Below are positions 7,382-42,084 of a stretch of DNA of 64,000 nucleotides, in pieces. Source of the DNA: an uncultured Lachnospiraceae bacterium. Lineage in GTDB: Bacteria > Bacillota > Clostridia > Lachnospirales > Lachnospiraceae. The position numbers were made by a program, and so were the translations under genes. Numbering within the stretch: the stretch's first letter is position 1; every line of letters begins with the position of its first letter. The stretch spans positions 124,001-188,000 of the forward strand of contig CAMWBY010000003.1 of NCBI GenBank assembly GCA_947172645.1. Direction: 5' to 3'. The notes under the pieces are model-generated. The model ran no database searches, had not been told where the DNA came from, and saw only the letters and a list, made by a program, of their open reading frames with translations.

Positions 7382-7430
7382 GGCAAAATTACAAATTTTT
7401 TTCACTTATAGGAAAGTCCTCCGCTTATCC

Positions 7431-7486
7431 GAGTCCGCGAAGCGGAACTCGCAAAGTTAATTTGCGCAGCAAATTAACTTTTTTTA
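7431..7486. repeat. Double-hairpin element A (terminator-like on + strand)
   Basis: Two hairpins in tandem. The first has a GAGT-CCGC/GCGG-AACTC stem (7431-7450). The second is a perfect 13-bp stem AAAGTTAATTTGC/GCAAATTAACTTT (7453-7465, 7469-7481) followed by T's on the plus strand. It lies between the DUF2344 gene and the MerR promoter. Read on the minus strand it has only an A-run in front, so it would be a weak terminator for the upstream gene. The arrangement matches the elements at 31537 and 41874. Confidence 0.7.
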
Positions 7487-31536: not shown

Positions 31537-31618
31537 ATACGACATAACGTAGTAAGGCGCCAACAAGAATTTGTGAAGCAAATTCTTGTAAATTTGGCCG
31601 TCAGGCCAAATTTTTTTA
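31537..31618 (+). repeat. 82-bp double-hairpin element B
   Basis: ATACGACATAACGTAG then an 11-bp stem ACAAGAATTTG/CAAATTCTTGT (31563-31573, 31579-31589), then a 10-bp stem AAATTTGGCC/GGCCAAATTT (31590-31599, 31604-31613) and a T-run (31611-31617). It is about 82% identical to 41874-41955 with compensatory stem changes. On the plus strand it reads as an intrinsic terminator; the T-run meets the parC stop codon from the antisense side. Confidence 0.75.
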
Positions 31619-41873: not shown

Positions 41874-41955
41874 ATACGCCATAATGTAGCAAGACGCCAA
41901 CAAGAATTTGCAACGCAAATTCTTGCAAAGTTGACCGCCGGGTCAACTTTTTTTA
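41874..41955 (+). repeat. 82-bp double-hairpin element C
   Basis: ATACGCCATAATGTAG then CAAGAATTTG/CAAATTCTTG (41901-41910, 41916-41925), then AAAGTTGACC/GGTCAACTTT (41927-41936, 41941-41950) and a T-run to 41954. It is about 82% identical to 31537-31618, with two compensatory base-pair changes in the second stem. It lies between the tRNA-Val promoter and leuC. Confidence 0.75.
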
Positions 41956-42010: not shown

Positions 42011-42084
42011 GGAAGCATAGCTCAGCCGGGATGAGCGTTCGCCTCACACGCGAGAGGTCATGGGTTCGAGCCCCATTGCTTCCA
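42011..42084 (+). tRNA. tRNA-Val (anticodon CAC)
   Basis: A complete 74-nt cloverleaf. Acceptor GGAAGCA pairs with TGCTTCC, D-arm GCTC/GAGC, anticodon stem TTCGC/GCGAG around loop CTCACAC (anticodon CAC), and T-arm ATGGG-TTCGAGC-CCCAT. Discriminator is A; CCA is not encoded. A T-run follows the discriminator base and may help termination. One of three plus-strand genes here. Confidence 0.97.

Follow-up and report, generated by a model that had tools for sequence, protein, structure and literature searches.

What are the two double-hairpin sequences that lie at 41874-41955 and 31537-31618 of a 64,000-nt stretch of DNA from an uncultured Lachnospiraceae bacterium (contig CAMWBY010000003.1 of assembly GCA_947172645.1; the whole stretch is called the window hereafter), and how did they come to be there? 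They make up the largest direct-repeat family of the window and are 83% identical over 82 nt, close to the value of about 82% given in the first-pass annotation of this DNA, which had proposed mobile terminators, RNA-processing elements or small RNAs. Both copies are decayed members of a family of elements. This family probably consists of mobile, non-autonomous DNA elements of Lachnospiraceae, about 90 bp long, that insert at T-runs, often those of intrinsic terminators, and duplicate about 8 bp. The copies are dispersed, their stems covary, their sites are T-runs, and a filled site compared with its empty counterpart carries a direct repeat.

A dispersed family of double-hairpin elements

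When the genome was searched with the DNA of copy 1 (41874-41955), 26 matches were obtained at E <= 10 and seven at E <= 1e-12; copy 2 (31537-31618) was retrieved with E = 4.6e-18. The first-pass annotation had suggested searching the genome and relatives with a covariance model of the two copies; a model (R1) built from seven copies of this genome was used for this, and the search did bring further copies. In the own genome, R1 gave 29 matches at E <= 10 and eight at E <= 1e-8, seven of these eight being the training copies, which match by construction.

The less decayed copies of this genome start with TATAGGAAAGT or near it, close to a T-run. In less decayed copies the left end (N)TATAGGAAA leads into a box of about 22 nt, after which come CCAA, hairpin 1 (CAAGAATT...AATTCTTG), hairpin 2, which may have any stem but is conserved in size, and a T-run. 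Being dispersed, about 90 bp short, non-autonomous and present in many copies, the element resembles in these respects the miniature inverted-repeat transposable elements (MITEs). Looser searches gained little: the box pattern with up to 3 mismatches gave 12 matches vs 4 in the reversed control, and the loose form of the hairpin-1 pattern gave 12 vs 5 in its control.

Insertion at T-runs and the direct repeat

The flanks of two species, G006 and G034, are 81-96% alike at the compared loci, which allows filled and empty sites to be placed side by side. At one locus (L257, filled; L343, empty) the bare site contains a single TTTTCTTG, and TTTTCTTG stands on either side of the insert, forming a clean direct repeat of 8 bp like the target-site duplication of a MITE. 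No terminal inverted repeat was found at L257, the left end TTTATAAGAAATTGC and the right end GCTTGCGCT not being inverted copies of each other by eye. Three other filled and empty pairs (L269/L380, L287/L375 and L279/L374) also lie at T-runs, their repeats blurred by substitutions. The locus L267 is filled in both G006 and G034, and the genome G008 (L345) keeps a similar terminator stem there without the element (by eye).

Across 56 non-tandem T-run copies, the bases after the left T-run were compared with those after the right one, the score being the highest obtained over several T-runs, in permuted as in real pairs. The mean match was 1.80 compared with 0.89 for permuted pairs, and a match of at least 3 nt was found in 14 copies compared with 3.3 (0 of 20000 permutations as high). 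When the permutation was confined to each genome (52 copies), the mean was 1.85 vs 1.21 (0 of 20000 as high), and matches of at least 3 nt numbered 14 vs 6.8 (p 0.0005). We read this as a putative duplication of about 8 bp, Ts included, the length of which is not fixed.

The copy lists used here and below were made with ad hoc filters, and open reading frames (ORFs) of at least 90 aa were taken as genes. A T-run follows hairpin 2 in 75 of 126 filtered copies, and in 47 of the 57 non-tandem copies with a T-run, 4 or more consecutive Ts also occur no further than 20 nt to the left. The 38 nt ending in this left T-run fold at -8 kcal/mol or below in 30 of the 47 copies, compared with 257 of 1583 control T-runs, namely other runs of 5 or more Ts at these loci (Mann-Whitney p 1.4e-10). 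The hairpin before the insertion is likely a host terminator. Since the upstream hairpins of L090, L110, L131, L165, L176 and perhaps L106/L153 resemble hairpin 2 of the family, the proportion of host terminators should be somewhat below 30/47; the hairpins of this appearance may be old tandem units.

Could ordinary terminators have multiplied through gene conversion, tandem duplication and recombination of T-runs that resemble each other, with no dedicated transposition? Tandem and truncated neighbouring units (L099/L166, L110, L159, L396) are what such a process would leave, and hairpin 2 is, by eye, alike within a genome and different between genomes. It is, however, difficult to reconcile with single copies where the site of a close species is empty, one of them flanked by a clean direct repeat, or with the recognisable 5' half, about 35 nt long, for which a terminator has no need. 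We consider this explanation unlikely.

Covariation of the stems

Covariation had been claimed from two base pairs of hairpin 2, and both replacements are present and compensated: G-C vs U-A at pair 4 and A-U vs G-C at pair 8. The accompanying statement that the stem of hairpin 1 is unchanged is true of its outer pairs, but the innermost pair is C-G vs U-G, and the loop differs too. Two pairs in two copies are weak evidence, and the seven copies of this genome alone are not supportive (RNAalifold covariation term +0.88); once the relatives are included, however, the case becomes compelling.

In the family as a whole, hairpin 1 keeps CAAGAATT...AATTCTTG and covaries in its inner part, while hairpin 2 retains its size and not its letters. 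Of 164 distinct sequence windows for which hairpin 1 was the sole selection criterion, 90 have at least 8 of the 10 hairpin 2 positions paired when a single fixed offset is used, compared with a mean of 20.5 and a maximum of 31 in 500 trials with exchanged arms, and these 90 contain 53 distinct hairpin 2 stems. In a MAFFT alignment of 25 hand-picked copies, 95.0% of the cells were paired vs 74.6% after shuffling and at most 50.1% after sliding, 121 cells were changed on both sides vs 37.6 after shuffling, and all 10 pairs of hairpin 2 showed double changes. One measure, that of further pair types, did not rise above the shuffles (272 of 500 as high), whereas the other four measures exceeded them.

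Neighbouring genes and a subfamily without the T-run

The left neighbour is in sense in 35 of 52 T-run copies, compared with 3 of 26 copies without a T-run; in this count L106 was entered twice among the T-run copies, and the class of other copies includes a few chance rows.

In many members of the genus, the right end of the element is TATTATATCATA or similar, with no Ts. On the other strand of these T-less copies, TA[TC]AAT occurs within 22 nt of the hairpin foot in 25 of 34, and the extended form TGnTA[TC]AAT was found in 21 of 34, compared with 0 of 75 T-run copies. Where both genes were called, the left gene starts towards the element in 23 of 26 cases; the class comprised 30 copies in the neighbour count and 34 in the motif count, the two definitions being slightly different. 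Read on the other strand, the order is a -10-like box, hairpin 2, hairpin 1 and a gene start. Judging by these sequence features, the T-less subfamily would perhaps act on that strand as a promoter with a 5' leader, a role that looks more likely for it than that of a terminator. Examples of the subfamily are L098, L103, L192 and about 30 others.

A promoter-like motif before gene starts, together with strong covariation, would also suit a cis-regulatory or small RNA family in which the structured RNA is the selected unit and the copies travel with their genes. Against this, the neighbouring genes differ from copy to copy (by eye), and the spacer between rsmD and the gyrA/parC-type gene, where copy 2 lies, was without the element in all 29 relatives fetched from the 74 with a match. 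No element was matched by Rfam at gathering score either, whether in the window, which gave one tRNA, or in 15 named loci, which gave two tRNAs, the signal recognition particle (SRP) RNA and an L10 leader; the best weak match to copy 1 had E 0.43. We regard an RNA family of this kind as improbable, and the earlier proposal of a small RNA finds no support, given the differing neighbours and the Rfam result. A role of the hairpins as an RNA-processing element is possible. The rsmD-gyrA/parC spacer was also considered as an exact empty site and rejected, the spacers of the relatives being too diverged.

The site before pheS concerns the terminator function in particular. In G006, a copy (L250) lies between a T-box leader (RF00230) and pheS, and the comparators L337, L339 and L340 are without it. 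In the own genome (L372, G000:C24 near 29834), the same place directly behind the pheS T-box terminator is occupied by an element of a related type, type C (see below), which is without the last hairpin arm and the T-run. At gathering score, the T-box was matched in L250, L372, L337 and L340, and not in L339. Two element types at one regulatory terminator, in two species, fit homing to terminators. Hairpin 2 of L250 carries a G-G mismatch (by eye), and both this mismatch and the missing tail of L372 would agree with selection disfavouring a second strong terminator ahead of an essential gene.

A model of insertion

Mobility of the element with a preference for T-runs would lead to the following course of events. 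The element would enter a T-run, in many cases one belonging to an intrinsic terminator, and duplicate roughly 8 bp of it, so that the host terminator would retain its T-run on the left and hairpin 2 would acquire one on the right. Since hairpin 2 abuts the duplicated T-run, the insertion would leave two terminator-like structures and would presumably do little harm; the inserted copy may then act as the terminator of the upstream gene. Among the earlier proposals, mobile terminators provide the best fit: further copies, covarying stems and T-run insertion with a direct repeat against an empty site agree with mobility, while the terminator role is a prediction from sequence.

A bolder version may be put forward tentatively. 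An as yet undescribed transposition system without inverted repeats might recognise the hairpin ends, home to the T-runs of intrinsic terminators and duplicate them, leaving both the host terminator and its own intact, with hairpin 2 wholly replaceable; one branch might have swapped the T-run of the right end for an extended -10 box on the reverse strand, and so have spread promoter-leader cassettes to gene starts. We consider this possible but doubtful. Small mobile repeats at which transcripts end or begin give rise to new gene regulation, and here a single type of element seems to act at gene ends in one branch and at gene starts in a second. The family offers a self-protecting insertion rule that can be tested, namely to enter the T-run of a terminator, duplicate it and disturb little, as well as many natural variants of a terminator-like stem within one architecture.

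A number of observations weigh against mobility by insertion at T-runs. Three of the four empty sites are imperfect, and a fifth pair (L253/L336) was dropped, its bare site seeming to retain a piece of hairpin 2. Seven of the 56 copies score 0 for the T-run match, and the copies in the window are themselves without a direct repeat (match score 0 for copy 2; by eye for copy 1). The length of the repeat is not fixed because the Ts are ambiguous, and GTGT between the left T-run and the head is constant in all 10 copies compared from the genome G443, so the element's own end may account for part of the left tail. Of the 52 T-run copies with both neighbours called, 17 are not preceded by a gene in sense; among the 75 T-run copies, another 11 lie inside a called ORF and 12 at an edge. 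A strong terminator at L250 before pheS would be harmful. For the covariance models, the phylum sample described below comes closest to a reversed-model control.

The mobilising enzyme is the last point of this kind: no partner was found in a search that covered Y1 as the sole transposase family, the heads without hairpin 1 being viewed by eye. REP- or PATE-like elements moved by a Y1 transposase (IS200/IS605 or RAYT) through single-stranded hairpin ends would be an alternative: a pair of hairpins between T-rich flanks, lacking an inverted repeat, would suit the IS200/IS605 scheme. Yet the Y1 domain PF01797 was present in three of eight genomes searched and gave 0 matches in the own genome, which is 98% complete, and around the Y1 genes that were fetched there was no exact head or hairpin 1, just matches with 1-2 mismatches. 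IS200/IS605 insertion is not known to make a target duplication, whereas one is seen here. A Y1 transposase was rejected as the mover, its presence not being consistent among the genomes searched, and we hold this alternative to be very improbable.

Distribution among relatives

Among 194 genomes, R1 matched at E <= 0.01 in 51, the own one included: 47 of the 77 genomes of the genus (own included), two of the same family and two of the same order with weak scores. A broader model (R2), built from 25 copies and used with a threshold of E <= 1e-6, matched 10 of 397 genomes and 8 of 334 genera in a sample of the family, and the own genome alone in a sample of 398 genomes of the phylum. These genome counts are lower bounds, because about ten candidates per genome were scored in the family and phylum samples and because R2 found two members of the genus, G059 and G064, that R1 had missed. 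The element family is patchy within Lachnospiraceae.

In named genomes, the exact pattern derived from the own copies gave no match. With the hairpin-1 pattern, 80 of 93 stretches were examined; 21 of the 80 were set aside as chance, the head and hairpin 2 being missing by eye, and R1 was applied to the other 59. The carriers among these 59 of the 80 listed stretches are records of Lachnospiraceae, Butyribacter intestini, Bacterium D16-36, a member of Lachnospiraceae, and a few metagenome-assembled genomes titled 'bacterium'; on the basis of likeness, L187 and L197 were attributed to strain D16-36. Collections of phage and viral contigs gave no match to the element, and a plasmid search gave one 28-base match at E 0.7. 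The genome G443 (L394-L401) contains ten high-scoring copies that are mutually alike, likely a recent burst.

Comparison with known repeats

A description of this family was not found in open-licence literature. The nearest ones found are those of SPRITE, BOX and RUP (PMC3049150) and of 'mobile attenuators' (PMC2965389). SPRITE of Streptococcus pneumoniae is likewise a short dispersed repeat with a terminator-like stem and a T-rich tail, enriched near gene 3' ends and thought to be mobile (PMC3049150). SPRITE is one 18-bp stem with AAAA/TTTT ends, for which a target duplication could not be established. The family studied here has instead two hairpins of 11 and 10 bp in place of a single 18-bp stem with a long T-rich tract, a replaceable hairpin 2 stem, T-runs as sites and, where an empty site allows comparison, a direct repeat, and it occurs in a bacterial family other than that of the pneumococcus.

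BOX and RUP are small, structured and MITE-like, as is our element, and a BOX has been reported in a composite with T-box riboswitches (PMC3049150), which is comparable with the element behind the pheS T-box. They are said to have terminal inverted repeats, however, none of which was found here, and the targeting of T-runs sets our element apart from them as far as the partial description goes. The 'mobile attenuators' are mobile terminators upstream of unrelated genes that may act as attenuators (PMC2965389), whereas here the terminator-like hairpin itself appears to be the small mobile unit. MITEAba12, of about 110 bp, is similar in being non-autonomous and in making short target duplications, and is without predicted terminators (PMC6382973); unlike MITEs, our element has no terminal inverted repeat, and no matching insertion sequence was found. 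REP and REPIN sequences (PMC3116915, PMC8266576) are small palindromic dispersed repeats as well, but here there is no consistent Y1 partner, and two unlike hairpins stand in a fixed order.

The copies in the window

In each copy the order is 5' box, hairpin 1 (11 bp), a one-base linker, hairpin 2 (10 bp) and T-run, all on the plus strand. In copy 1, the conserved 5' box (41875..41900) is preceded by a decayed head and followed by hairpin 1, CAAGAATTTGC-AAC-GCAAATTCTTG (41901..41925; -10.5 kcal/mol), and by the covarying hairpin 2, AAAGTTGACC-GCCG-GGTCAACTTT (41927..41950; -13.9 kcal/mol), with the T-run (41948..41954) immediately at its foot. Copy 2 has a head without AGGAAAG, the conserved 5' box at 31538..31563, hairpin 1 at 31564..31588 (-10.5 kcal/mol), hairpin 2, AAATTTGGCC-GTCA-GGCCAAATTT, at 31590..31613 (-13.2 kcal/mol), and a T-run plus A at 31611..31618. 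The plus-strand T-run at the end of both copies had been noticed in the first-pass annotation; hairpin 2 with its 7 Ts, a stable hairpin followed by a T-run, would in both copies be a candidate intrinsic terminator.

The earlier placement of both copies near gene ends or starts is also correct. Copy 1 lies upstream of both its neighbours, leuC (minus strand, ORF start 41828) and tRNA-Val (42011-42084). Copy 2 has a gyrA/parC-type gene on one side and rsmD on the other, both genes being on the minus strand, and its final three bases are the reverse complement of the gyrA/parC-type stop codon, which is thus the complement of 31616-31618 within the terminal TTTTTTTA of the copy. The name parC is likely rather than certain, because the general subfamily model is the only NCBIfam model whose cut-off the gene reaches.

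Related elements and variant copies

The pattern TTTTN{1,7}ATAGGAAAGT gave 28 overlapping matches in the own genome, corresponding to 21 distinct places, and none in the reversed control. Inspected by eye, nine of these places carry elements of type B (two truncated), four of type C and one of the type studied here, while seven are without such hairpins. These types place the element described above in a superfamily whose head is common and whose hairpins are exchangeable. A type B element is the third member in the window (7396..7486, plus strand), with the T-run/ATAGGAAAGT head and other hairpins: its left T-run lies at 7396-7402, the head at 7408-7417, the hairpins CGAGTCCGCGAAGCGGAACTCG and AAAGTTAATTTGCGCAGCAAATTAACTTT at 7430-7451 and 7453-7481, and the right T-run extends to 7485. 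At least nine such elements were counted in the own genome by eye. Type C also occurs outside this genome, type C-like units (ATAGGAAAGTCCTTCGCCAGAAGG...) being present in L116 (7174 on; a UBA11962 record) and beside a hairpin 2 in L195.

Variants of the element were seen at several loci. In the right flanks of L159 and L187, the head and its inverse form short palindromes (CTATAGGAAAC..GTTTCCTATAG in L187 and TTATAGGAAAC..GTTTCCTATAA in L159), which may represent the element in its smallest form. Some copies stand at contig ends (for example G443:C50:3-104 and G013:C17:1-78), which suggests assembly breaks at the repeats. Tandem units of about 92 bp occur in L099/L166, L110, L396 and, in the own genome, L066. 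In L106 (about 1940-2040), hairpin 1 is lengthened to TGGTATGCCAACAAGAATT...AATTCTTGTTGGCATACCA and runs into hairpin 2.
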